Made by a program: the position numbers and the translations under genes. Positions 39,777 through 54,092 of a stretch of 64,000 nt of DNA are shown here, one piece after another. The stretch covers positions 62,001 through 126,000 of the forward strand of contig NZ_JAGQDE010000003.1 in the NCBI RefSeq assembly GCF_018069755.1, given 5' to 3'. The notes under the pieces are model-generated. The model searched no databases and was not told where the DNA came from. It saw only the letters and a list, made by a program, of their open reading frames with translations. How positions within the stretch are numbered: the first letter of the stretch is position 1; every line of letters starts with the position of its first letter. This stretch comes from Ideonella aquatica (GTDB taxonomy: Bacteria; Pseudomonadota; Gammaproteobacteria; Burkholderiales; Burkholderiaceae_C).

Positions 39777-40469
39777 ATGGTCCGCATCGCCGTCATCGAG
39801 GACGATCCCCCCACCAGCCGCCAGCTCTGCGGCTGGATCGCCGCCGCCCGCCCGGATGCGCAGATCGATTGCTGGTTCGACCGCGACAGCGCCGACGCCG
39901 CGCTGGCCCGCGAGCGCTACGACCTGGTGCTGCTTGACATTGAGCTGGGCCGCGAGCGCAATGCCGGCGTGGCGCTGATCAATGCCATCAACAAGCGCCA
40001 CGCGGGCACGCCGGTGCTGGTGGTCTCGGCCATGCCGGCGGCGATCTACCGCAGCATCATGAAGGCGCTGGACGCCTGGGACTACCTGCAGAAGTCCACC
40101 TTCGAGGAGGCCGACTTCGTCGAGACCTTCCTCGACATCCTGCGCGCCACACGCGACCGTGCGCCTGCCGCCGCGGTGCCGACGGTCGATCCCGACGCCG
40201 TGCTGATCGACCCGTTGCGCCAGGGCGCCGCGATCTGGCGCGGCCAGAAGGTCAACCTGCCGCTGACCGCGCAGCGCATCCTGGCCGCGCTGCTGGCGCG
40301 CAAGGGCGAGGTGGTCAGCTACGAGGAGCTCTACCAGGTGGTCAAGAGCGGGCGAAACCGCGACAACATCCGCAAGCACGTCAGCACCATCCGCGACGCG
40401 CTGCGCGAGATCGACCCCGCGTTCGACGGCATCGCCAACATCCCGATGCGCGGGTTCCGCTGGGGATGA
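39777..40469 (+). CDS. OmpR-type response regulator
   Basis: The 230-residue protein has a receiver domain (VIEDDPPTSRQLCGW, phospho-acceptor Asp54 in LVLLDIELG, then LVVSAMPAA and LQKST). The C-terminal winged helix has LPLTAQRILAALLARKGEVVSYEELYQVV, KHVSTIRDALREIDPAF and IPMRGFRWG. It is translated together with the following histidine kinase through an ATGA overlap (40466-40469), so the two form a cognate pair. The insertion RERNAGVALIN after the phospho-acceptor is slightly unusual. Confidence 0.93.
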   Translation: MVRIAVIEDDPPTSRQLCGWIAAARPDAQIDCWFDRDSADAALARERYDLVLLDIELGRERNAGVALINAINKRHAGTPVLVVSAMPAAIYRSIMKALDAWDYLQKSTFEEADFVETFLDILRATRDRAPAAAVPTVDPDAVLIDPLRQGAAIWRGQKVNLPLTAQRILAALLARKGEVVSYEELYQVVKSGRNRDNIRKHVSTIRDALREIDPAFDGIANIPMRGFRWG

Positions 40470-42508
40470 TCCGCCTGCGTCCGCGCATCCCGCTGCGGCT
40501 GCGCTTCTTCTTCCGCGCGGCCTTCGCGCTGCTGGCGCTGGCGGTGCTGGGCTTGGCGCTGACGCTGCTGGCCGAGGAAAAGGAGCGCGCCTGGCGCAGC
40601 CGGCGCGAGGGGGTGGACCAGACGCTGGCGCAAATCGGTGGACGGCTGCGCCATCCCACCGGCCAGCTGGCCCTGATGAACCCCGAGGCGCGGCCCGGGC
40701 CGCCGCTGCGGCCGCTGGTGCTGCCCTTTGGCGCGATCGACTTCGACGACCGCGCCAAGGCCCAGCAGGCGGTGGAGATGGCCGGCTGCGCGCTGCAGTA
40801 CGCCGACGCGGTGCAGCTGTGCGCCGCGGTGGGCGCCAACCCGGCGGCCGGCGGCTTCCTGTACCTGGTGGGCCAGCTGCCGCTGGGACCGCTGGCGGCG
40901 CGCGCGCCGGGCGACACCGATTTCCGCCATGCCCATCGCGCGCAGGTGCGGGTGCTGATGCGCGGCCGCGAGTGGCACTGGCTGGCGCCCTACGAGCTGC
41001 CGGCCGACGCGGGGGCCAGCGCCGGGCGCGGCAAGCTGACCGGCTTTGCGGTGGACGGCGCCAGCGTGGCCGAGCGGCCGCAGCGCGACTTCCGCGGCTG
41101 GTTGTGGCAGGACGCCCGCTGCCTGGATGGTGGCGAGGCCGACGACTGCCTGCGCCGCAGCTACTACTCGCTGCGCCTGCCGGTCGAGCTGTTCCGCGAG
41201 GACCTGCAGGCCGCGCGCGGCCGGCCGGTCTGGCCGCCGGCCGACCTGGACCGCATCGAGGTGCACCTGCGCCTGATGGGCCCGGGCGATGACACGGCTG
41301 CGCCGCTGTTCGATTCCGACCAGCCGGGCGCCACGCCACCCTTCACGCTGGCCGAGCTGGCGCGTCTGCTGCAGCCGGGCGAGTCGCTGCGCGTGCGCCG
41401 CCTGGGCCCGCAGCGGGCCACCGAGGTGGCGCTGCTCAGCGGGCCCGAGGACACGGCGCAGCCGCTGTCGCCGCTGCTGGAACGCCTGATCCGCGCGCTG
41501 CCGGTGCAGGACAACCCGGCGCCGCTGCAGGCCAGCGACACCGTGACCACCCCCACCGGACGCTACGAGCTGCGCCTGGAGGGCGACAGCCGCGGCGTGG
41601 ACCGCGCGCTGGGCCGCGTGGCCACGCGCATGGCCTGGTTCGTCGGTGCGCTGCTGCTGGCGATCGGCCTGACCTGGGCCGCGATCGAGCTGCGGGTGAT
41701 CCGCCGCATCACGCTGCTGACCCGCCGCGCGGCGGCGGTGCGGCGCGACGTCAAGGAAGGCGGCGAGATCCGCCTGGAGGTCAGCGAGCTGCGCGGCAGC
41801 GACGAGCTGGGCCTGCTGGCCGGCACGCTGGCCGAGCTGATGCAGCGGGTCAACGACGACGTGCGCCGCGAGCACATCCGCGCCCGCCAGGAGAAGGACC
41901 AGTGGCACGCGGTGGGGCACGAGATCCTGTCGCCGCTGCAGTCGCTGATGGCGCTGCACGGCGACCCGGCCGATCCCAGCCACCGCTACATCCAGCGCAT
42001 GCAGCAGGCGGTGCGCGTGCTGTATGGCCAGGCCTCGCCCACCGAGGCCTTCGAGTCCACCGCGCTGGGCCTGGCCCCGCTGGACCTGGACCAGTTCCTG
42101 CGCCACGTGGCCGAGAACGCGCCGCATGCGGGCATCAGCGCCGTGACCTACGACGGCCCGGGCGGGCCGCTGGCCGTGCAGGGCGACGAGTACGCGCTGG
42201 AGGACGTGGTGACCCATGTGCTGCGCAATGCCGCGCGCTGCCGGCACCCGGACACACCGATCACGCTGACGCTGCGGCGCGTGGGGGAGCGCGCCGAACT
42301 GGGCATCCGCAACCAGGGCCGGACCATTGCCGAGGAGCGGCTTGAGCGCATCTTCGAGTACGGGGTGTCGGACGCGCCGGCCGAGTCGGGCAGCCGCGGC
42401 CAGGGCCTGTTCGTGGCGCGCACCTGGATGGCCAAGATGGGCGGCACCATCGTCGCCCGCAACGAGACCGACGGCGTCAGCCTGGTGCTGACGCTGCCAC
42501 TGGCCTGA
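40466..42508 (+). CDS. Sensor histidine kinase with a large periplasmic domain
   Basis: The 680-residue protein has two membrane helices (about residues 16-36 and 390-412) flanking a periplasmic sensor domain of about 350 residues that has no family I recognise. A HAMP-like linker, the box WHAVGHEILSPLQSLMALHG with the phospho-acceptor His, HVLRNAARC (N box) and GSRGQGLFVARTWMAKMGG (G2 box) follow. The G1 box reads GIRNQGRTI, with Asn where Asp is usual, a variant also found in active kinases. The stimulus is unknown. Its stop abuts the opposite gene's stop. Confidence 0.92.
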   Translation: MIRLRPRIPLRLRFFFRAAFALLALAVLGLALTLLAEEKERAWRSRREGVDQTLAQIGGRLRHPTGQLALMNPEARPGPPLRPLVLPFGAIDFDDRAKAQQAVEMAGCALQYADAVQLCAAVGANPAAGGFLYLVGQLPLGPLAARAPGDTDFRHAHRAQVRVLMRGREWHWLAPYELPADAGASAGRGKLTGFAVDGASVAERPQRDFRGWLWQDARCLDGGEADDCLRRSYYSLRLPVELFREDLQAARGRPVWPPADLDRIEVHLRLMGPGDDTAAPLFDSDQPGATPPFTLAELARLLQPGESLRVRRLGPQRATEVALLSGPEDTAQPLSPLLERLIRALPVQDNPAPLQASDTVTTPTGRYELRLEGDSRGVDRALGRVATRMAWFVGALLLAIGLTWAAIELRVIRRITLLTRRAAAVRRDVKEGGEIRLEVSELRGSDELGLLAGTLAELMQRVNDDVRREHIRARQEKDQWHAVGHEILSPLQSLMALHGDPADPSHRYIQRMQQAVRVLYGQASPTEAFESTALGLAPLDLDQFLRHVAENAPHAGISAVTYDGPGGPLAVQGDEYALEDVVTHVLRNAARCRHPDTPITLTLRRVGERAELGIRNQGRTIAEERLERIFEYGVSDAPAESGSRGQGLFVARTWMAKMGGTIVARNETDGVSLVLTLPLA

Positions 42509-42967
42509 TCAGCGCCAGCCGAAGTGCTGGCGCAGCAGCGCCGCGCTGGCATTCACCGGCTGGTGCAGCACATTGGGAAAGCGTGCCACCGCGCCGCGCG
42601 CGGGCACCTGCGGCTTGACCGGGTCAGCGCCCAGCACCGCCACGCGCTCGATGCGCCAGCCGGCGCGGCCAAAGGCATCCAGGTAGGCCTGGGCATCCGG
42701 CAGGCCCTGCGGGTCCAGCGGGCTGCCCTGGGGCGACAGGATGAAGGCGGCGTGGGTGCAGCGCTGGCGCTGCACCTCGGCAATGAAGTCCTGCGGCGTG
42801 GTGCGGGTGTCCTGCAGCGCCGAGACGCGGGCATACAGGCGCACGGTCTGGCCGCTGGCCAGCTCGATGTCGCGCAGGTTGCGGCTGTAACAGCCGGTCA
42901 GGCAGCGCAGCAGCGTGGATTTGCGGGTGCGCGGGCTGCCGATCAGCACATAGGCGGTGAGGGTCAT
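42509..42967 (-). CDS. Small P-loop-like protein of unknown function
   Basis: The 152-residue product begins MTLTAYVLIGSPRTRKSTLLRCLTG. The GSPRTRKST segment has the layout of a Walker A loop (G-x-x-x-x-G-K-S/T) but with Arg in place of the second Gly. It also has IELASGQTVRLYARVSALQD and HAAFILSP, reminiscent of small GTPase or cofactor-kinase folds. No clear Walker B is seen. It may be a degenerate NTPase. It is transcribed toward the histidine kinase gene and probably alone. Confidence 0.6.
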   Translation of the reverse strand: MTLTAYVLIGSPRTRKSTLLRCLTGCYSRNLRDIELASGQTVRLYARVSALQDTRTTPQDFIAEVQRQRCTHAAFILSPQGSPLDPQGLPDAQAYLDAFGRAGWRIERVAVLGADPVKPQVPARGAVARFPNVLHQPVNASAALLRQHFGWR

Positions 42968-43003
42968 GGGCGGAGCTTAGCGAATCCTGTGCCACGCCCC
43001 ACC

Positions 43004-43585
43004 TCAGTGCGTCAAGTGGCGCTCGATGCGGCGGTCGGGCACCAGCCACATCAGGGCCACCAGCACGTACAGCGCCATGGTCAGTACCGGCATGCTCTGC
43101 ACCAGCGCCAGCGCCAGCGCCACCGCATAGCAGACCAGGGAGAGCTTGCCCTTCCAGTCGCCACCCAGCGCTTCGCGCAACACCGACTGCTCGCCCTGGC
43201 TGCGGATGATCAGCTGCTGCAGCACGCAGTAGCTGAGCGCGCACATCAGCAGCACCACGCCGTACAGGGCCACGGGCATCACCTCGAAGTGGTTCTCGCC
43301 CATCCAGCCGGTGGCAAACGGCACCAGCGACAGCCAGAACAGCAGCGCCATGTTGGCCCACAGGATGCCGCCATTGACGCGCTGCACCGTGTGCAGCATG
43401 TGGTGGTGGTTGTTCCAGTAGATGCCCACGTAGATGAAGCTCAGCACGTAGCTGAGGAACACTGGCAGCAGCCCCTGCAGGTCGGCCAGGGCGGCGCCGT
43501 GCGGCACCTTCATCTCCAGCACCATGATGGTGATCAGGATGGCGATCACGCCGTCACTGAAGGCCTCGAGCCGGGTCTTGTGCAT
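43004..43585 (-). CDS. TMEM175/DUF1211-family potassium channel-like protein
   Basis: The 193-residue product begins MHKTRLEAFSDGVIAILITIMVLEMKVP, containing the F-S-D-G-V-x-A-I signature that lines the pore in TMEM175 channels. It has six hydrophobic segments and the segment FIYVGIYWNNHHHMLH typical of the family. Bacterial members are K+-selective leak channels of one six-helix repeat that form tetramers. The ATG at 43585 matches the family start. It is divergent from the large TonB receptor gene. Confidence 0.93.
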   Translation of the reverse strand: MHKTRLEAFSDGVIAILITIMVLEMKVPHGAALADLQGLLPVFLSYVLSFIYVGIYWNNHHHMLHTVQRVNGGILWANMALLFWLSLVPFATGWMGENHFEVMPVALYGVVLLMCALSYCVLQQLIIRSQGEQSVLREALGGDWKGKLSLVCYAVALALALVQSMPVLTMALYVLVALMWLVPDRRIERHLTH

Positions 43586-43805: not shown

Positions 43806-46800
43806 ATGTACCTGCTTCCGTCGACGTCCCGGCTCGCCAGCCTGACTCCTCTCGCTGCGGCGCTCGTCGCCCTGCTGTGGTCAGGCAGCGTGGCGGCCCA
43901 GCCCACGCCTGATACGCCGGCCGAGTCCCCCGAGCCCGCGCGGGTGACGGTGCGCGGCCAGCGCCCCTATGAGCAGGGTCCGCTGCCCGGCCTGCTGCTG
44001 GGCCGCGACCAGCTGCCGGCCAATGTGCAGTCGGCGGACAAGGCCGAACTGAAGGCCAGCCGGGCCTTGAACATCGGCGAGTTCATGAACCTGCAGATGC
44101 CCTCGGTCAGTGTCAACGACTATGCCGGCAACCCCTTCCAGCTCGACGTGTCCTACCGCGGATTCACCGCCAGCCCGCAGATTGGCACGCCGCAGGGCCT
44201 GTCAGTGTTCCTGGATGGCGTGCGCGTCAACGAGCCCTTCGGCGACGTCGTCAACTGGGATCTGCTGCCGATGAACGCAATCGAGCGTTTCGACGTGTTT
44301 CCGGGCTCGAACCCGCTGTATGGCCTGAACACGCTGGGCGGCGCGCTGAGCTTGCGCACGCGCAGCGGCTTCACCTCGCCTGGCCTGGACGCCAGCCTGC
44401 AATACGGCAGCGCCGGCCGCGCCCAGGCGCAACTGGCCTACGGCTGGCACGAAGAGTCGCGCGCGCTGTTCGGTGCACTGACCCACTTCGAGGAACGCGG
44501 CTGGCGCGACAACTCCCCCTCGCGCGTTGACCAGGGCTTCGTGCGTGGCGACTGGCGTTTCGAGCGCGGCAGCGTCGGTGTCAGTCTGCTGGGCGCTTCC
44601 AATGACCTGATCGGCAACGGACTGATCCCCTACGAGAGCTGGCTTCAGAACCCGCGCAGCGTGTTCACCTCGCCCGACCAGTCGCGCAACCGGCTGGCGC
44701 AGGCGCAGCTGTTCGGGACCTTCGAGCTCGACGAGCAGATCAACCTGAGCGCGCAGGCCTACACGAGGCACTCGCGCCGACGCGGCCTGAACGGCGACAT
44801 CTACGAGGGCTTCGACGAGTTCGATGCCGACATCGACGTGGTGCGCGGTCCGCTGCGCCCGCGCACCAGCCCGCTGCCGGCCTGCCAGTGGCTGGATGCC
44901 AACCGCGATGGCCGGCGCGATACCGAGATCATCGTGCTGCCTGACGGCACCGCGGTCGATGACGTGCTGCTGGCCCCGCTGAACGATCCGAACAACGAGG
45001 GCTTGTGCGACACCTCGGCACGCCGCCCCCAACTGGGTGGCGCGCGCAACGGACAGGAAACCGGCGCTCCCGGCGTGGTCGAGGGCACGCCGATCGGCCT
45101 GCTCACCCGCACCGACGTGGCCCAGCGCACCGATGGCCTGGCGCTGCAGATGAATTTCAACCTGGAGCGGCATCGCCTGATGGTGGGTGCGTCGGTCGAT
45201 GCCAGCAGCGCCAGCTACCGCATGGCGCAGCGCCTTGGGCTGATCGATGCCTCGCACCAGGTCTATGCGGCACCGGACCAGATCGACGTGCAGTACCGCG
45301 CAGCCCAGGTTGATGTGCGGGCCAACGACTTTGACGGCCGCTCGCGCACCCGCAGCCTGTATGTCAGCGAGACCTGGACGCCGCAGCCCGGCCTGCACCT
45401 GAACCTGGCTGGCCGCTACAACCACACCCGGGTGCGGACCCGGCTGCTGGCGCGCAGCGGCTTTGGCGAGGAGGCCGGCGCGCTGCACAACCTGCGCACC
45501 GGCAACCTGCGTGCGGCCTACCTGCTGTGCCCCACGGCGGACCCGGCCTCGTGCCCGAGCGAGCCGCAGCCGGTGGCGCGGCCGCTGGAGCAGTTGCCCG
45601 ACGCGCTGACGCGCGAAAGCTTACGCTACGAATCGCTCAACCCCTCGCTGGGCTTCAGCTGGCGCCTGGATCCGGCGCTGAACCTGTTCGGCAACCTCAG
45701 CGCCGGCACGCGCACGCCGTCGGTGATCGAGCTGGGCTGCGCCTTCGATGCGCGGCCGGTGAACCTCAATGCCGGCCTGATCGACGACGCCACCGGCGAG
45801 GCGGTGCCGCCGCTGATGCGTCCGCGCAGCCTGGTCGGGCCGACCTGCAGCCTGCCCAGCACGCTGTCGGGCGACCCGTTCCTGCCGCAGATCCGGGCCC
45901 GCTCGGCCGAGCTGGGTGCGCGCGGCCTGCTGCCCGCCAACTGGGGTCCACTGTCACGCTGGGAGTGGAACGCCAGCGCCTACCGCACCGACCTGCGCGA
46001 CGACATCTTCTTCGTCGGTGTCTCGGCCGAGCGCAGCTACTTTGACACCATCGGCCACACCCGGCGACAGGGGGTCGAGATGGGCGTGAAGGGCCGGCAC
46101 GGCCCCTTTGAGCTGCGCTTCAACTATGCCTGGACCGATGCCACCTTCCAGTCGCGCTTCTATGTGCTGAGCCCGCACAACAGCAGCGCCGACTTCGATC
46201 AGAACAGCCAGCCCTCGTCGGCCCTGCCCACACCCACCGCGAATGACAACGGCACCGCCGGCACCTACCGGATGATCCGGGTCGACCCCGGCGCCCGGAT
46301 GCCGGGCATCTCGCCGCACAACCTGAATGCCAGCCTGTCCTGGTCGGTCAGCAGTGCCTGGACACTGCGCCTGAGCGCCGTGGCGCATTCGCGCGCCTAT
46401 GTGCGTGGCAACGAGAACAACGCGCACCGGCCTGCCGGCACCGACAGCGAGACGCTGCTCTACCTGGGCGGCAGTGGCACCTGGTGCGATGCCAATGGCT
46501 ACTGCGGCGGGACCTCGGGTGGCGGGCGCACGGTCGGGCGGCCGTTCATGCTGCCGGGCTCGACGCCCGGCTACGCGGTGTTCCATCTGATGAGCCACTG
46601 GCGACTGCCCTCGGGGCTGACCTTGACCGCGGGTGTCTACAACCTGTTCGATCGGCGCTACTTCACGGCGGGACGCCTGGGGGTCAACCCATTCTCGCCC
46701 TCGGTGCTGGGGGCCATTGGCCCGAGCGGCTGGAACTACAACTCGTCGGAGTGGCAGAACACCAGCTTTGTCGGGCCGGCGGCGCCACGGGCGTTCGTGC

Positions 46801-46826
46801 TGGGAGTGAGCCTTGAACTGGACTGA
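43806..46826 (+). CDS. Large TonB-dependent receptor heading a lipoprotein operon
   Basis: The 1006-residue protein begins MYLLPSTSRLASLTPLAAAL, a signal peptide ending near SVAAQ. The plug has MPSVSVNDYAGNPFQLDVSYRGFTASPQIGTPQGLSVFLDGVRVNEPFGD-like order and IERFDVFPGSNPLYGLNTLGGALSL. A barrel of large extracellular loops and a C-terminal strand (AFVLGVSLELD) follow. One loop contains DANRDGRRDTE (about residues 364-374), an EF-hand-like calcium loop, and nearby Cys residues. It overlaps the next gene by 14 bases, so it is an operon with two paralogous lipoproteins. Arrays like this often move a specific nutrient, but the ligand is unknown. Confidence 0.9.
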   Translation: MYLLPSTSRLASLTPLAAALVALLWSGSVAAQPTPDTPAESPEPARVTVRGQRPYEQGPLPGLLLGRDQLPANVQSADKAELKASRALNIGEFMNLQMPSVSVNDYAGNPFQLDVSYRGFTASPQIGTPQGLSVFLDGVRVNEPFGDVVNWDLLPMNAIERFDVFPGSNPLYGLNTLGGALSLRTRSGFTSPGLDASLQYGSAGRAQAQLAYGWHEESRALFGALTHFEERGWRDNSPSRVDQGFVRGDWRFERGSVGVSLLGASNDLIGNGLIPYESWLQNPRSVFTSPDQSRNRLAQAQLFGTFELDEQINLSAQAYTRHSRRRGLNGDIYEGFDEFDADIDVVRGPLRPRTSPLPACQWLDANRDGRRDTEIIVLPDGTAVDDVLLAPLNDPNNEGLCDTSARRPQLGGARNGQETGAPGVVEGTPIGLLTRTDVAQRTDGLALQMNFNLERHRLMVGASVDASSASYRMAQRLGLIDASHQVYAAPDQIDVQYRAAQVDVRANDFDGRSRTRSLYVSETWTPQPGLHLNLAGRYNHTRVRTRLLARSGFGEEAGALHNLRTGNLRAAYLLCPTADPASCPSEPQPVARPLEQLPDALTRESLRYESLNPSLGFSWRLDPALNLFGNLSAGTRTPSVIELGCAFDARPVNLNAGLIDDATGEAVPPLMRPRSLVGPTCSLPSTLSGDPFLPQIRARSAELGARGLLPANWGPLSRWEWNASAYRTDLRDDIFFVGVSAERSYFDTIGHTRRQGVEMGVKGRHGPFELRFNYAWTDATFQSRFYVLSPHNSSADFDQNSQPSSALPTPTANDNGTAGTYRMIRVDPGARMPGISPHNLNASLSWSVSSAWTLRLSAVAHSRAYVRGNENNAHRPAGTDSETLLYLGGSGTWCDANGYCGGTSGGGRTVGRPFMLPGSTPGYAVFHLMSHWRLPSGLTLTAGVYNLFDRRYFTAGRLGVNPFSPSVLGAIGPSGWNYNSSEWQNTSFVGPAAPRAFVLGVSLELD

Positions 46827-48636
46827 GGGGCGCACCTGGGTCGGCCTGGCGCTGTGCTTGTTGAGCGCCTGTGGTGGCGGCTCGGGCGTGCGCGAGACCC
46901 CCGCGCCGGCGACGCGCATCATGCTGCAAGGGGCGGTGGTCGACAGCGCCCCGGTCGCCCAGGGCGCCATCGAGGTCAAGCCGCTGGCCGGCGTGCCCAC
47001 CTCGACACGGCGCGATGACTCCGGCCGCTACGAGCTGATCGTCGAAGGGCTGACGGCACCGTACGTGCTGTGGGACGAGACGGCGCAGTTGGCCGGTGTG
47101 GCACTGGCTCCGGGCCGGGCGCCGGTGACGCCGTTGAGCCATCTGCTGCTGGCCGAGCTGCAAGGCGACGACCCGGCGCACTTCTACCAGGTGCTGGGGC
47201 CGGTGGGGGCGGCCGACTTTTCGCGCATCGATGCCGCGCAACTGGCGGACGCCGAGCAGCGCCTACTTGAGCGGCTGCAGCGCCAACTGGGCCTGACGCT
47301 TCCGGCCGACCTGGGCCGCTTCCACGACAGCGCCTTCGAGCCGGTGGCAGGCGATCCGATGATGGATTTGATCAGCGGCCTGCACGCTGCGCTGGCGCAG
47401 CACGGCAGCGACCTGGCCACGCTGGTGCAGGAGGTCGCACTGCATGGCCGGCTGTGCGACCGGGCGCGCGTCACGCTGGACCTGGGCGGTGCGCACTCGG
47501 TGTTCTGCCCGATGGAGCTGACCTCCGCCGTCGACGACACCGCCGGCACCGAGGCACTGCACTTTGCCAGCCCGCTGGGCGATGAGCTGCAAGTGCTGCT
47601 GCGCAGCGGCGCGGTGGCGTCGGTGCGCTGGCTGCGCGACGGCCGCGAGCGCGCGGCCTGTACTGGCGCCGGCTGCGCCGGCCTGGGCGTCGGTGTACCG
47701 GATGCCGACGGCCACCGTCTGCTGACATGGAAGCAGGTGCGCCTGAGCGGCGCGACACCCGCCAGCGTCCAGGGCCGTCTGAGCAGCGGCGAGGGCCCCG
47801 TGCAGGCCCCCTGCGCCGGCCGGCGCTTCAGTGCCCGGCACACCGATGGCTTGCGCGAGGAAGAGTGCGTGGGGCAGCGCCTGGTCACCCGTCAGTTCCA
47901 ACGGCTGGCTCATGGATTCACCGGGGCCGTGGACGGCTCGCGCCTGCTCGACATCCGGCTCGATGGCGACCGGGTCGCCTGGATCTCGCTGGGCCGTACC
48001 TGGGGCGAGATCGAGTACCGCTGCATCGGGCGGGCCTGCAGTGGCGTGAGCGTCGGCCCGGCAGCGGCCGACGGCGTGCGGCGGATCGTGCTCGCCGGCA
48101 CCCGCATGGTCCGAGCGCTGGGCGACGGCCAGGTCGACCCGGCCGACACGGTGCAGGTGGAGGCCGATGTGCTCACTGCCCGCACGCCCCCCGCACCCAC
48201 CGACAGCTGCCCGATGCCGATCCTGCTGACGCTGGAAAGCAGCGACGGCACTGTGATGCCCCTGTGCGACACCCGCCCCGGGGCATCGATCGGCATCGAC
48301 GACGTCGATGGCGATGGTCGCTTCGAGACGGTGATGACCGACAGCACCAACCCGGAGTCCGATGTCGTCAGCGTGGTCTACAACCTGGACCTGGCACAGC
48401 CGACGCAGGTCACGATGAGCCGCGTTCGGGTCGAGGCCTTCGAGCTGGCTTACCGCTGCCGCGGCGGCGACTGCCAAGGGGGCAGCGTCACCTTCACAAC
48501 CGACCTGCGCTATCGCTTCCAGTTCGATGGCACGGTGCTGGACGAGGTGCTGCCTGACGGGTCGCCTGGTACACGCCATCTGGTGCTGCGCGGCACGATC
48601 TTGTCGGCCGCACTGGTCGTTGCACCCGGAGACTGA
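46813..48636 (+). CDS. Lipoprotein A with paired-cysteine repeats, partner of the TonB receptor
   Basis: The 607-residue product has a lipobox (LSAC, Cys20) and so is probably a lipid-anchored outer-membrane or periplasmic protein. After an N-terminal carboxypeptidase-regulatory-like beta module (about 35-85) and a helical region (about 105-215), three modules share the motif C-x-G-x-x-C-x-G: Cys283/288, Cys404/409 and Cys549/554. In two of them Y-R-C precedes. A calcium-loop-like D-V-D-G-D-G-x-x-E lies at 497-505. The TTG start at 46813 has GGGAG eight bases upstream and lies inside the end of the receptor gene; no better start precedes the lipobox. No known family is recognised. Confidence 0.72.
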   Translation: MNWTEGRTWVGLALCLLSACGGGSGVRETPAPATRIMLQGAVVDSAPVAQGAIEVKPLAGVPTSTRRDDSGRYELIVEGLTAPYVLWDETAQLAGVALAPGRAPVTPLSHLLLAELQGDDPAHFYQVLGPVGAADFSRIDAAQLADAEQRLLERLQRQLGLTLPADLGRFHDSAFEPVAGDPMMDLISGLHAALAQHGSDLATLVQEVALHGRLCDRARVTLDLGGAHSVFCPMELTSAVDDTAGTEALHFASPLGDELQVLLRSGAVASVRWLRDGRERAACTGAGCAGLGVGVPDADGHRLLTWKQVRLSGATPASVQGRLSSGEGPVQAPCAGRRFSARHTDGLREEECVGQRLVTRQFQRLAHGFTGAVDGSRLLDIRLDGDRVAWISLGRTWGEIEYRCIGRACSGVSVGPAAADGVRRIVLAGTRMVRALGDGQVDPADTVQVEADVLTARTPPAPTDSCPMPILLTLESSDGTVMPLCDTRPGASIGIDDVDGDGRFETVMTDSTNPESDVVSVVYNLDLAQPTQVTMSRVRVEAFELAYRCRGGDCQGGSVTFTTDLRYRFQFDGTVLDEVLPDGSPGTRHLVLRGTILSAALVVAPGD

Positions 48637-48638
48637 GG

Positions 48639-50492
48639 ATGGACCGGCACCTCGATCTGCGCTCCCGCGGCCGGCTGGCGTGGCTGCTGGCGATGGGCAC
48701 GGCGGCCCTGGCTGTGCTGGTGGCCTGCGGTGGCGGTACGCCCAGCGATGCGCCTGCTGGGCCCCCCGTGCTGCAGGGGCGTGCCAGCACCGGTTACCGC
48801 ATCCTCAGCGAGTTCAGCGTGCGCGCCTTGGCCGGCACGCCGCGCAGCCTGTCGCAGTCCACCCAGGGCGACGGCAGCTACAGGCTGCCCTTGGACGATC
48901 TGCAGGCGCCCTATGTGCTGCGCGCCAGCTCGCCTGTCAGTGGCGAGGCCTTTCATGCGCTGGCCACGCGGCCCGGCGCGCTCAACGTGACGCCGCTGAC
49001 CGAGTTGGTGGCGGCGGCCCTGCTGGGAGAGCCGGCCGGGGGGTTCTACGACGGCCTGCGCTGGGGCGTGTCCGATGTCGCGCCCATCACCGCCCAGGCT
49101 TTGACCCAGGCCGAGGCGCGGGTGCGTACGCTGCTGGTGCAGCGGCTGGGCATTGACGTGCCCGAGTCGCTGCTACCCTTCGGCGAGGTCGATTTCAGCG
49201 TGGCCGCTGACGACCCGATGACCCAGGTGCTGCGTGTGTTGCGGCAGCGCGTGGCCGACCAGGGTCGGCTGTTTGCCGACCTGGTGGACGACGTGGCCGA
49301 GGACAGCGCGCGCTGCCGCGGTGAGTCGCTCGCCCTGTTGCTGGGCGATGCGCCGGACCGCTTCTGCCCGCTCAGCCGCAGCCGAGTCAGCGTGCCTGGT
49401 TCGGTACAGACACTGGGTTTTGCCAATGTCTTCGGCGACCGTCTGCAGCTGCGTCTGCAGGGCGAACAGGTGCTGGATGTCCGGCTCGACCGCAGCGGAG
49501 CGGGCAGCGGTGCTTGCAGTGGCGCCGCCTGCGCCGGTCTGCGCGTGGGGCCGGCCGACAGCCAGGGACGCCGCAGCCTGGATTTTGTCGCCGTGATGCT
49601 GGGCAGCACCCGGCTGGACGGGCAGCTTCACAGCGGCCAGGGCGAGGATCCCCGGCCCTGCACCGGTATTCCGATGCGGCTGCTGGGACCGGATGGCACG
49701 ACCGAGTTGCGTTGTGTCGCGCGGCGCATCGCCACCTCGAAGTTCGGCCGCGTCTCGCACGCGTTCCAGGCCAAGACCGATGCAGGCTGGCTGCTCAACG
49801 TGATCACCGAGGGCGACCGTGTCGTCTGGGTCTCGGTGGGTGACCCGCTGCGCGCCGGCCTGAGCGGCGGCGGTCAGCGCTGGCGCTGCCAGGGGGCCGG
49901 ATGTGCCGGCGCCACGGCCAGCGCCTTGGCGGCCGATGGAACGCGCCACCTGTCCTTGAAGGATGTGCGGCTCGCGCTGGTGGGCGCGGACGGTCAGGCT
50001 GACGAGGCCGTGCAGGCTCGTCTGAGTACCGAGCTCGACACCATCGCCCTGAACGAGCCGCCACTGCCCGTGTGCACGCCCTTCAAGGGCCTGGTGCTGG
50101 CCAACAGCGATGGCACCCGGCTGGAGCTGTGCGCTGACCGGCTGGCGCTGAACCCATCCTGGGAAGACCTGGATGGCGACGGCCAGCCCGATCAGTTCTG
50201 GGGCAGTCTGGGCGACGTCGGACGCTACACGATGACGATCAATGTGCTTGCCTGGTCGCCCACCAGCGGCCTGGCCGACGGCGTGGAGCTGCTGACGCGT
50301 TACATCAACAGCGATGGTGCCGAGTCCCTGCAGACCGTGCACTACCGCTGCGGCGGCGGGTGTGCCGGCGTGACGGCCCGCCAGGACGGCGATCTGACGC
50401 GCCTGCACTTTCAGGACGTGTTGCTGCTTGAGATGAACCCGGACGGCCAGCCCGGCGACCGCACGCTGAGCATCAACGGCGACATGCCCTGA
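48639..50492 (+). CDS. Lipoprotein B, paralogue of lipoprotein A
   Basis: The 617-residue protein starts MDRHLDLRSRGRLAWLLAM with a lipobox at LVAC (Cys30) and the same architecture as the preceding gene product. It has an N-terminal beta module, a helical region and three paired-cysteine modules (Cys293/298, Cys417/422, Cys571/575). A calcium-loop-like D-L-D-G-D-G-x-x-D lies at 510-518. Its ATG lies 2 bases after the stop of the first lipoprotein, so the pair arose by tandem duplication and stayed coupled. The sequences differ widely outside the motifs, which suggests separate roles, such as binding different parts of one ligand or complex. Confidence 0.75.
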   Translation: MDRHLDLRSRGRLAWLLAMGTAALAVLVACGGGTPSDAPAGPPVLQGRASTGYRILSEFSVRALAGTPRSLSQSTQGDGSYRLPLDDLQAPYVLRASSPVSGEAFHALATRPGALNVTPLTELVAAALLGEPAGGFYDGLRWGVSDVAPITAQALTQAEARVRTLLVQRLGIDVPESLLPFGEVDFSVAADDPMTQVLRVLRQRVADQGRLFADLVDDVAEDSARCRGESLALLLGDAPDRFCPLSRSRVSVPGSVQTLGFANVFGDRLQLRLQGEQVLDVRLDRSGAGSGACSGAACAGLRVGPADSQGRRSLDFVAVMLGSTRLDGQLHSGQGEDPRPCTGIPMRLLGPDGTTELRCVARRIATSKFGRVSHAFQAKTDAGWLLNVITEGDRVVWVSVGDPLRAGLSGGGQRWRCQGAGCAGATASALAADGTRHLSLKDVRLALVGADGQADEAVQARLSTELDTIALNEPPLPVCTPFKGLVLANSDGTRLELCADRLALNPSWEDLDGDGQPDQFWGSLGDVGRYTMTINVLAWSPTSGLADGVELLTRYINSDGAESLQTVHYRCGGGCAGVTARQDGDLTRLHFQDVLLLEMNPDGQPGDRTLSINGDMP

Positions 50493-51645: not shown

Positions 51646-53466
51646 TCAGCGCGGCGCGTCCGGGTCCCATCCCGGCGCGCGCTGGCGCTGCGCCAGCGCC
51701 TCGCGCTCCTGGGCGAACAGCTCTTCGAGCTGCTGCCGGCCCTGCTTGGCCATCGACACCAGGGCCTGCTCGTCGCGGTGGTGCGGGTACATGCGCTCGA
51801 CCTGCTCGACCAGGTGCTGGCGGTAGCGCATGGCCAGCTGGCGGGCCTGGTGCGGCAGCCAGCCCAGTTGCTCCAGCACGCGGCGCGCGCTGAACAGGGC
51901 GGAGTCCATGGTCTCGCGGTCGATCAGTGCCACGCCGCGGTCGCGCAGCGCGTAATAGTGCTGCACGTTGCGGGCGCGGGCGACCAGCGTGAGCTGCGGA
52001 AAGTGCTGGCGCGCGGCCTCGGCCAGGGCCAGGCTTTGCTCGACATCGTCGATCGCGATCACCAGCACCCGCGCCTGCTCGGCGCCGGCCAGGCGCAACA
52101 GGTCCAGCCGGGTAGCGTCGCCGTAGTGCACCCGAAAGCCAAACTTGCGCAGGAACTCCACTTGCTCGGCGTCGTGGTCCAGCACCGTGGGCCGGATACC
52201 GTTGGCGTACAACAGCCGGCCAACCACCTGGCCGTAGCGGCCGAAGCCGGCAATGATCACCGGGCCCTCCTGCGGCTCGGCCAGTGCGTGTGGCGAGCCT
52301 GTGGCGGCACGCGCGAAGCGCGGCAGCAGCAGGCGGTCGATCAGCACCAGCAGCAGCGGCGTCACCAGCATCGACAGCGCCACCGTGCCCACCAGCAGCG
52401 CACCGTGGCGCGCGCCGATCACGCCGGCCCCTTCAGCCTGCTGGAAGACCACGAAGGCGAACTCGCCGCCCTGGGCCAGCAGCAGGGTCAGCACCGGGCG
52501 TTCGGCCAGCGGCACCTTCACCGTGGTGGCCAGGGCCCAGATCACGGCGGCCTTCAGCGCCAGGAAGCCCAGCAGCAGCCCCAGCACCAGCCAGCGGTCG
52601 GCCCACAGCGCGGCAAAGTCCATCGACATGCCCACGGCCATGAAGAACAGGCCCAGCAGCAGGCCCTTGAAGGGCTCGACGTCGGTTTCCAGTTCGCGCT
52701 TGTACTCGCTCTCGGCCAGCAGCACGCCGCCCAGAAAGGCCCCCAGCGCCATCGACAGGCCGGCGGCCTCCATCAGGCTGGCGATGCCCACCACCAGACC
52801 CAGCGCGGCGGCGGTGAAGATCTCGGGCGATCGGCTGCGCGCCACCCAGCGCAGCGCATGGCGCAGCAGCAGGCGGCCGCCCAGGATGATCGCGGCGATC
52901 ACGCCCACCGCCTTCAGCGCCTCCCAGGCCGGATGGCCGGCGCCGGGGCCGCCCTGGCCCAGCAGCGGGATCAGGGCCAGGATCGGGATGGCGGCCACGT
53001 CCTGCAGCAGCAGGATCGCGAAGCCGGCCTGGCCACCGGCGGTGGGCAGCAGGTGGCGCTCCTGCATGATCTGCAGCGACACCGCGGTGGACGACAGCGC
53101 CAGCGCCAGGCCGGCGATCACCGCCATCGTCCACGGCGCACCCAGCGCCCAGCCGGCGCCGCCCAGCACCACGGCGCAGCCCAGCAGCTGCGCCGTGCCC
53201 CAGCCGAAGATCGGCCGGCGCAGTGCCCACAGCCGCGGCGGCTCCAGCTCCAGGCCGATCAGGAACATCATCAGCACCACGCCGAACTCGGCGGCGTGCA
53301 GGATCGATTCGGGGTCCTTCACCACGCCCAGCCCGAACGGCCCGATCGCCACGCCGGCGCCCAGGTAGCCAATGATCGAGCCCAGGCCGAAGCGCTTGGC
53401 CAGCGGCACGAAGAGCACCGCGGCAGCCAGGTAGATCAGCGCGGCATGCAGCCACTGCGAGTTCAT
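51646..53466 (-). CDS. kefC: Glutathione-regulated potassium-efflux antiporter KefC/KefB type
   Basis: The 606-residue protein has an N-terminal CPA2 Na+/K+:H+ exchanger domain of about twelve helices (LGSIIGYLGAGVAIGPFGLGVV, FLIGLELEPPRLW, SSTAVSLQIMQE, LLQDVAAIPILALIPLL) and a C-terminal RCK/TrkA-N domain (VIIAGFGRYGQVVGRLLYANG, with the Asp of VLDHDAEQVE). The channel opens on glutathione-S-conjugates and acidifies the cytoplasm against electrophile damage. Its ATG overlaps the KefF-like gene stop (ATGA), the standard kefFC arrangement. Confidence 0.94.
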   Translation of the reverse strand: MNSQWLHAALIYLAAAVLFVPLAKRFGLGSIIGYLGAGVAIGPFGLGVVKDPESILHAAEFGVVLMMFLIGLELEPPRLWALRRPIFGWGTAQLLGCAVVLGGAGWALGAPWTMAVIAGLALALSSTAVSLQIMQERHLLPTAGGQAGFAILLLQDVAAIPILALIPLLGQGGPGAGHPAWEALKAVGVIAAIILGGRLLLRHALRWVARSRSPEIFTAAALGLVVGIASLMEAAGLSMALGAFLGGVLLAESEYKRELETDVEPFKGLLLGLFFMAVGMSMDFAALWADRWLVLGLLLGFLALKAAVIWALATTVKVPLAERPVLTLLLAQGGEFAFVVFQQAEGAGVIGARHGALLVGTVALSMLVTPLLLVLIDRLLLPRFARAATGSPHALAEPQEGPVIIAGFGRYGQVVGRLLYANGIRPTVLDHDAEQVEFLRKFGFRVHYGDATRLDLLRLAGAEQARVLVIAIDDVEQSLALAEAARQHFPQLTLVARARNVQHYYALRDRGVALIDRETMDSALFSARRVLEQLGWLPHQARQLAMRYRQHLVEQVERMYPHHRDEQALVSMAKQGRQQLEELFAQEREALAQRQRAPGWDPDAPR

Positions 53467-54092
53467 CGGCGATCTTCCACGGCAGGCCGGTCGCGCAGCG
53501 GCACCTGGCAGGTCGGGCACTCGGCCATGTCGGCGATCTCCGGCCAGTCGGGGTAGTCGCGCAGGCGGCTGGCGTAGGTCTGTGCGTGCTCGCGCAGTGC
53601 GTCGGCCGACAGCTGGTGCGCGCCATGCTGCACCATCGGCGGCAGGAAGCGCAGGCCGCACAGCGCGGCGGTCTGCTCATAGGGCGGCAGAAAGGCGTCC
53701 AGGAAGTAGCGGTTGTAGCCCTGCGGGTGGTAGGCGTCCTCGGTGCCGCCGGTGCTCAGCACCAGCCACAGGTCCTTGCCCTGCAGCGCGCGCGTGCTGC
53801 GGCCCTCGGCGTGGCCGTAGGCCCAGCCGTAGGCCAGCACCTCGTCCAGCCACAGCTTCATCAGCGGCGGCATTGAATACCACTGCAGCGGGTGCTGCCA
53901 GACGATCAGGTCGGCCGCTGCGGCGGCGGCCTGCTCGGCGGCCACGTCGATCGCGTAGTCGGGGTAGAGCGCGTACAGGTCGCGCACCTGCACGCCGGGC
54001 ACACCGCGGGCAGCCTCCATCAGCGGGCGGTTGACGTGTGAATGCTGCAGCGCCGGGTGGGCGACCAGCACCAGGATGCTTGGCGCCACCAT
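53463..54092 (-). CDS. kefF: KefF/KefG-type NAD(P)H quinone oxidoreductase, ancillary protein of KefC
   Basis: The 209-residue flavodoxin-fold protein has SILVLVAHPALQHSHVNRPLMEA, the flavin-binding segment WQHPLQWYSMPPLMKLWLDEVLAYGWAYG and LSTGGTEDAYHPQGYNRY. KefF is needed for full KefC activity and reduces quinones. The C-terminal extension AECPTCQVPLRDRP contains a C-x-x-C pair not usual in KefF, possibly a redox or metal site. It overlaps the upstream membrane-protein gene by one base (TGATG). Confidence 0.9.
   Translation of the reverse strand: MVAPSILVLVAHPALQHSHVNRPLMEAARGVPGVQVRDLYALYPDYAIDVAAEQAAAAAADLIVWQHPLQWYSMPPLMKLWLDEVLAYGWAYGHAEGRSTRALQGKDLWLVLSTGGTEDAYHPQGYNRYFLDAFLPPYEQTAALCGLRFLPPMVQHGAHQLSADALREHAQTYASRLRDYPDWPEIADMAECPTCQVPLRDRPAVEDRR

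Follow-up and report, generated by a model that had tools for sequence, protein, structure and literature searches.

The stretch of DNA analysed here, referred to as the window, is 64,000 nucleotides of the Ideonella aquatica genome (contig NZ_JAGQDE010000003.1, positions 62,001 to 126,000), and contains a gene for a TonB-dependent receptor followed by genes for two lipoproteins, all on the forward strand (Table 1). Plug (PF07715) and TonB_dep_Rec_b-barrel (PF00593) domains were found in the receptor, both above their cut-offs. The lipoproteins are 34% identical over 607 aligned columns (E 1e-72), identifying them as paralogues, and a lipobox was read by eye in each (LSAC-G in lipoprotein 1 and LVAC-G in lipoprotein 2); under the +2 rule, lipoproteins of the outer membrane have no Asp at position +2. 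With the presumed TTG start of lipoprotein 1, taken from the open reading frame (ORF) tool, its gene overlaps the receptor gene by 14 bp and is separated from that of lipoprotein 2 by 2 bp. The first-pass annotation had described a TonB receptor and two paralogous lipoproteins whose genes overlap or nearly touch, and this description, including the coordinates, is correct. Judging from the sequence, the receptor and the two lipoproteins are one tight gene unit. The G+C content at third codon positions of this triad was 0.85-0.89 compared to a mean of 0.91 (sd 0.035) for the 43 called genes of the window, a shift too mild to decide whether the triad was gained recently.

Fifteen related lipoproteins were compared, one of which (the L055 copy) was cut by a contig end. 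The lipid-carrying cysteine was kept in 13 of the 14 relatives with a residue at that column, and 12 further cysteines were conserved (ten in 15/15, one in 14/14 and one in 14/15). These form three units per lipoprotein, each consisting of C-x(16-18)-C, as spaced in the window, followed by C-x(3-5)-C. Profile comparison between units yielded E values of 1.3e-14, 8.4e-18 and 4.4e-14; therefore, a domain of about 125 residues is triplicated. Each lipoprotein had been said to carry three copies of C-x-G-x-x-C-x-G. This was exact for lipoprotein 1, but lipoprotein 2 has only two, its third motif being one residue short (CGGGCAG, i.e. C-x3-C-x-G), such that 5 of the 6 places are exact. The point missed at first pass is that this motif is part of the larger domain with its four conserved cysteines. 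Neither lipoprotein matched Pfam at E<=1 or exceeded any NCBIfam cut-off, and the one sub-threshold NCBIfam match was to the signal region of lipoprotein 2 (14.3 bits of 37). Comparison with known families had been set beforehand as a check on the modules; with no Pfam or NCBIfam match, the repeat seems to define a domain family that is new, and its conserved cysteines look like structural disulfides.

Motif counts were also compared with those of shuffled proteins (20000 shuffles each). The exact C-x-G-x-x-C-x-G motif was expected on average in 0.003 copies, D-x-D-G-D-G was observed once per lipoprotein compared to 0.004-0.005 expected, and D-x-[DN]-x-D-G-x-x-D was observed once in the receptor compared to 0.002 expected. 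Therefore, all of these motifs exceed chance, including the loops first noted in both lipoproteins and, as D-A-N-R-D-G-R-R-D, in the receptor. The lipoproteins had no Pfam match to an EF-hand or dockerin family, only the short motif. An AlphaFold model of the lipoprotein (8 rows) was of modest confidence (mean predicted local distance difference test score (pLDDT) 73.7, predicted template modelling score (pTM) 0.48). In our reading, the model opens with a mixed N-terminal domain, and its strands then seem to recur in a similar order in three successive blocks. Foldseek returned 28 matches to it at E<=0.001. The sole match with probability 1.00 was the PgcA non-heme domain (E 1.6e-5, TM by target 0.48, root-mean-square deviation 10.9), which most likely covers the N-terminal part of the lipoprotein, the aligned range not being printed; for the remaining 27 matches TM by query was about 0.1 or less.

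Table 1. Features of the receptor-lipoprotein unit and of related loci. Positions are those of the window unless a locus (L) is given.
Feature	Position or locus	Strand	Basis
TonB-dependent receptor, 1006 residues, kin of methylotroph receptors	43806..46826	+	Pfam domains, identity to Methylovulum receptor, tree
EF-hand-like loop DANRDGRRD of receptor	44895..44921	+	pattern C-[QRK]-[YFW]-x-D-x-[DN]-x-[DN]-G-x-x-[DE]
Lipoprotein 1, 607 residues, lipobox Cys20, presumed TTG start	46813..48636	+	ORF list, sequence reading
N-terminal domain of lipoprotein 1, strands then helices, common to other proteins of the order	46873..47436	+	
Repeat domain 1 of lipoprotein 1 (C215, C232, C283, C288)	47437..47799	+	
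Repeat domain 2 of lipoprotein 1 (C334, C352, C404, C409)	47800..48201	+	
Repeat domain 3 of lipoprotein 1 (C466, C485, C549, C554)	48202..48633	+	
DVDGDG loop, repeat 3 of lipoprotein 1	48301..48318	+	
Lipoprotein 2, 617 residues	48639..50492	+	ORF list, alignment with lipoprotein 1
Repeat domain 1 of lipoprotein 2	49296..49646	+	unit-versus-unit profile comparison
Repeat domain 2 of lipoprotein 2	49647..50066	+	unit-versus-unit profile comparison
Repeat domain 3 of lipoprotein 2	50067..50489	+	unit-versus-unit profile comparison
DLDGDG loop, repeat 3 of lipoprotein 2	50166..50183	+	
Shortened third motif CGGGCAG (C-x3-C) of lipoprotein 2	50349..50369	+	
Tandem-loop Methylococcaceae receptors	L060, L062, L063, L064, L066, L067, L069, L071		
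MID family members	L011:9184-9987; L053:12975-14499; L064:7443-8297; others		
RTX-type loci	L085, L087, L101, L102, L103, L107, L110, L116, others		
Pentapeptide-repeat-like loci	L061-L064, L066, L068, L069, L072, L083, L092, L105		

Whole-genome searches found the lipoprotein repeats in four genomes (three copies in G000, three in G051, two in G093, one of them full and one short, and one in G010). Every one of these copies adjoins a TonB receptor of one clade, and the linkage of the modules to such receptors therefore holds elsewhere. A weak match in G001 (53 residues, E 5.6e-4) was dropped as chance, as it overlaps a 764-residue frame that we take to be similar to a penicillin-binding protein. 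When 399 genomes of the order were searched with a whole-length lipoprotein profile, 35 matched, three of them at full length (G000, G051 and G093); the other 32 matched only the first ~217 profile positions, indicating that this N-terminal part is common. Among 369 genomes of the class, the repeat part was found in 1, the window's own, and is thus rare; in both the order and class searches, scoring was limited to the top few candidates of each genome. Among 15 genomes of the same genus, only G010 had a credible copy. A scan of genome contigs with lipoprotein 1 as a single protein gave no match.

As the lipoprotein alignment was too variable for scanning, the receptor alignment was used instead. 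The best 80 of at least 529 relatives were kept, giving the 77 nearest receptor loci, several per genome. The repeat profile was run on the open frames of 82 sources, i.e. these 77 loci together with the window, L011, L017, L018 and L019, and matched 14 of them, which correspond to 12 distinct loci since L018/L051 and L019/L058 are identical. Having been reached mostly via the receptor, the 12 loci show spread and not linkage. Repeats were present at 9 of the 77 receptor loci and not at the other 68, and because several of the latter are short contigs their absence is weak evidence. A quick receptor tree of 95 rows was built from which the receptors of L052 and L054, also found with lipoproteins, were left out. 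The 10 lipoprotein-linked receptors formed one group (SH-like approximate likelihood ratio test (SH-aLRT) 93), within which the window receptor paired with that of G051 (SH-aLRT 97). The gene order is receptor-lipoprotein-lipoprotein in the window and lipoprotein-lipoprotein-receptor in G051. A second locus in the window's genome has a receptor, a protein of a family that we call MID and a lipoprotein, and several other loci have a receptor, MID, a short two-unit protein and a lipoprotein. Lipoproteins at these loci were 25-38% identical to the window's, and receptors 55-62%. Locus L054 (1065-18210) contained three receptor matches and two full lipoproteins in opposite directions on one contig.

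The record titles of 55 of the 77 nearest receptor loci carried Methylo- names by our count, among them Methylomonas, Methylobacter, Methylovulum, Methylobacillus, Methylophilus, Methylotenera, Methyloversatilis and Methylophaga. The window receptor is 44% identical over its full length to that of Methylovulum miyakonense, which is flanked on one side by a kinase/regulator pair and on the other by a regulator gene that diverges from one resembling mxaF (WDYAG). At the Methylovulum locus L064, the genes after the mxaF-like gene are presumably mxaJ, G and I. The place of the M. miyakonense regulator matches the location of mxaB in M. buryatense, as given in PMC5018670. The EF-hand-like loop of the window receptor would be extracellular, because it sits in a long insertion of the barrel. 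Its pattern was kept in 7/10 lipoprotein-linked and 11/11 Methylococcaceae receptors, and in 0/6 ped-type and 0/10 short MID-linked receptors, these groups having been picked after seeing the tree, with 59 of the 96 aligned rows ungrouped. Tandem pairs of such loops occur in eight of the 11 Methylococcaceae receptors.

We next consider the link to pyrroloquinoline quinone (PQQ)-dependent alcohol dehydrogenases. In the 399 genomes of the order, the receptor (E<=1e-100) was found in 10, the TIGR03075 dehydrogenase (E<=1e-60) in 100 and both in 10. The hypergeometric p for this co-occurrence was 7e-7, uncorrected for kinship; as 6 of the 10 genomes belong to one family, its independent weight is five families. 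Fourteen handles were queried, namely G093 (the same as G435) and 13 of the 22 loci lacking a Methylo- name; they represent 13 distinct genomes. A dehydrogenase above the cut-off was found in all 13 (107 matches in total), and a WD[FY]D site in 12 of them (30 copies fetched); from G441 two copies were fetched, one yielding no motif and one with WDYGG. The window's genome has three PQQ alcohol dehydrogenases, two with WDFDG (lanthanide-type) and one with WDFSG (Ca-type). On its contig C54, the match to a third receptor paralogue ends 2.7 kb before the start of a dehydrogenase pair, one Ca-type and one lanthanide-type. Related receptors of Azoarcus (L083) and Azonexus (L092) lie near WDFSG (Ca-type) and WDFDG dehydrogenases and kinase/regulator pairs, and the G051 triad adjoins two PQQ enzymes, one of which has a WDFD site yet falls below the TIGR03075 cut-off. 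A gene neighbourhood of the lanthanide-switch type was found in relatives such as L064, L083 and L092 and at the C54 paralogue, and not at the window locus. Derxia lacustris, host of the lipoprotein at L052, is reported to have a lanmodulin homologue (PMC12482762).

The explanation that we favour, and to which we give an even chance, is that the triad is a LanA-like receptor for uptake of lanthanides or lanthanide chelates with tethered capture lipoproteins. Because relatives of the receptor adjoin alcohol-oxidising enzymes that use rare earths, lanthanides are probably what the triad gathers. The lipoproteins, each with three disulfide-braced beta domains, one of which has an EF-hand-like loop in the window's subtype, would bind lanthanide ions, free or chelated, at the cell surface and hand them to the receptor, which may itself bind metal through its EF-hand-like loop. 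TonB would then pull the lanthanide through the receptor into the periplasm, where it would be available to PQQ alcohol dehydrogenases that depend on lanthanides and to the switch by which these enzymes are selected. The gene unit, the repeats, the linkage of lipoprotein and receptor, the kinship of the receptor, the co-occurrence with PQQ enzymes and the lanthanide-type motifs are read from sequences; lanthanide as the cargo, surface orientation, metal binding and hand-over are what we infer, cargo identity and surface orientation being the weakest steps. A search of the genome for SLAM gave no match, and was uninformative as the control was equally silent.

LanA and LutH are known lanthanide receptors (PMC12482762, PMC7391723 and PMC11845868). 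In Methylotuvimicrobium buryatense, the lanthanide switch includes LanA as its TonB-dependent receptor, and the window receptor is of the same kind; its relatives adjoin mxa-like genes of methanotrophs, and its genome carries lanthanide-type dehydrogenase motifs. However, the passages on LanA examined here mention no lipoprotein partner. LutH of Methylorubrum extorquens is likewise an outer-membrane receptor for lanthanide uptake (PMC7391723). Its gene belongs to the lut cluster, which also encodes an ABC transporter. In Neisseria, the receptors TbpA and HpuB work with the ligand-capturing surface lipoproteins TbpB and HpuA, an arrangement to which the triad is analogous, although the window lipoproteins have no Pfam match. 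A TbpB-like fold was rejected, as the TbpB structure 3hol gave a TM of 0.09 with our model of modest confidence. SusC and SusD are also a receptor and lipoprotein encoded together; however, the window lipoproteins had no SusD family match in Pfam.

Several observations weigh against the lanthanide explanation. The window triad itself adjoins no dehydrogenase, and co-occurrence with PQQ enzymes fits other enzyme-tied cargo as well. The dehydrogenases are called lanthanide-type on the basis of WD[FY]D, the DYD motif, taken as the lanthanide site. Likeness to LanA is one of receptor kind and of the gene neighbourhood of relatives. The repeat domains had no credible Foldseek match to a solved fold. 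Three of the 10 lipoprotein-linked receptors, among them the second receptor of the window's genome, lack the receptor loop, and D-x-D-G-D-G is present in only 4 of the 15 lipoproteins (both of the window and both of the G051 triad, and 0/11 others), so that the mechanism cannot centre on this motif. The first-pass proposal of a metal-dependent capture complex feeding the receptor is partly supported and still reasonable, with lanthanides now indicated by comparison. As the lipoprotein loop is not general, the common site would lie elsewhere if metal is bound directly, or a chelate or the MID protein would be bound instead. Lastly, FecI/FecR-like genes (labels that we assigned), which are usual for iron-siderophore receptors, lie near the receptor in ~35 of the 82 sources, mainly Methylophilaceae.

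The latter result favours an unlikely alternative, in which the receptor takes up an iron- or other metal-siderophore with accessory lipoproteins and the tie to PQQ enzymes reflects only the lifestyle of the host. FecI/FecR-like genes adjoin many Methylophilaceae relatives, and the receptor matches the TonB-siderophor model, although below the cut-off (70 bits of 223.5). However, at the lipoprotein loci inspected, L052 not being among them, such genes were found only at L056, before another receptor. No siderophore synthesis family was found among the seven window proteins scanned, and the presence of PQQ enzymes in every receptor-bearing genome of the order also argues against this explanation. 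It is quite improbable that the receptor imports an organic compound later oxidised by PQQ alcohol dehydrogenases. TonB receptors with lipoproteins import glycans elsewhere, and the 14 dehydrogenase matches of the metagenome-assembled genome RBC049 point to alcohol specialists. However, methanol, the presumed main substrate of the receptor-bearing methylotrophs, needs no receptor, kinase/regulator pairs flank several receptor relatives, and no hydrolase or glycan-binding family was above cut-off in the seven window proteins (two genes at 42509-43585 lay outside the scan). A little less probable still is that the cargo is PQQ, alone or complexed with a metal. PqqU is likewise a TonB receptor tied to PQQ enzymes, and the link with PQQ dehydrogenases and a weak match to its model (NF041535) would suit such a cargo, but the match reached 58.2 bits against a cut-off of 1200, and pqqC is present in the window's genome, which presumably makes its own PQQ and would not need to import it. 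The weakest explanation, with only a slight chance, is that the lipoproteins face the periplasm or assist receptor assembly without binding cargo: their surface display is presumed and their conserved cysteines look structural, but their fast divergence relative to the receptors suits exposed parts, and two paralogues per receptor would fit ligand capture better than assembly.

Other genes were found near the receptors. Proteins of the MID family, ~270 residues long and exported-looking, were near receptors in 44 of the 82 sources (two sources are duplicates); some have what we take to be PEP-CTERM-like tails. Near-invariant acidic residues surround D202-D209 (numbering of the L053 protein). 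Four members tested had no Pfam match, and a confident model (pLDDT 88) had no match in the PDB at E<=0.001. Loci of Methylophilaceae and Methylophaga often continue, after the receptor and MID, with genes for an RTX calcium-repeat protein, conceivably a secreted metallophore of protein nature, and with ABC-exporter-like genes (13 loci in the RTX cluster). Methanotroph receptors and ped-type dehydrogenases also have neighbours that resemble pentapeptide-repeat proteins; this cluster comprises 11 loci, and one of its members was Pfam-tested. In the window, an OmpR-type regulator and histidine kinase pair lies upstream at 39777-42508, with two opposite genes before the receptor. This pair was set aside as the switch of the triad, as it showed no clustering with the regulators found at related loci and the two opposite genes intervene. 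The genes at 51646-54092 look like those of a potassium antiporter of the KefB/C type and of the quinone oxidoreductase that partners it.

A receptor with a lipoprotein is a known design, and lanthanide receptors are already known. Our search of titles, with subscription papers mostly outside it, found no paper on lipoprotein partners of lanthanide TonB receptors. We suggest, tentatively and with doubt outweighing confidence, that the triad is the first two-part system for capture of lanthanides at the outer surface, in which a LanA-like receptor is joined by tethered lipoproteins of a new, triplicated disulfide beta domain, with sister loci using a secreted MID protein, and that it is used by alcohol oxidisers beyond the classic methylotrophs. 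In the literature examined, receptors for lanthanides are described, and no binding partner at the cell surface is named. If the lanthanide explanation is true, candidate surface lanthanide binders have been named, Ideonella, Derxia, Nevskia, Peristeroidobacter and similar alcohol oxidisers would join the bacteria with lanthanide uptake machinery, and the lipoproteins would provide new protein scaffolds relevant to rare-earth recovery.

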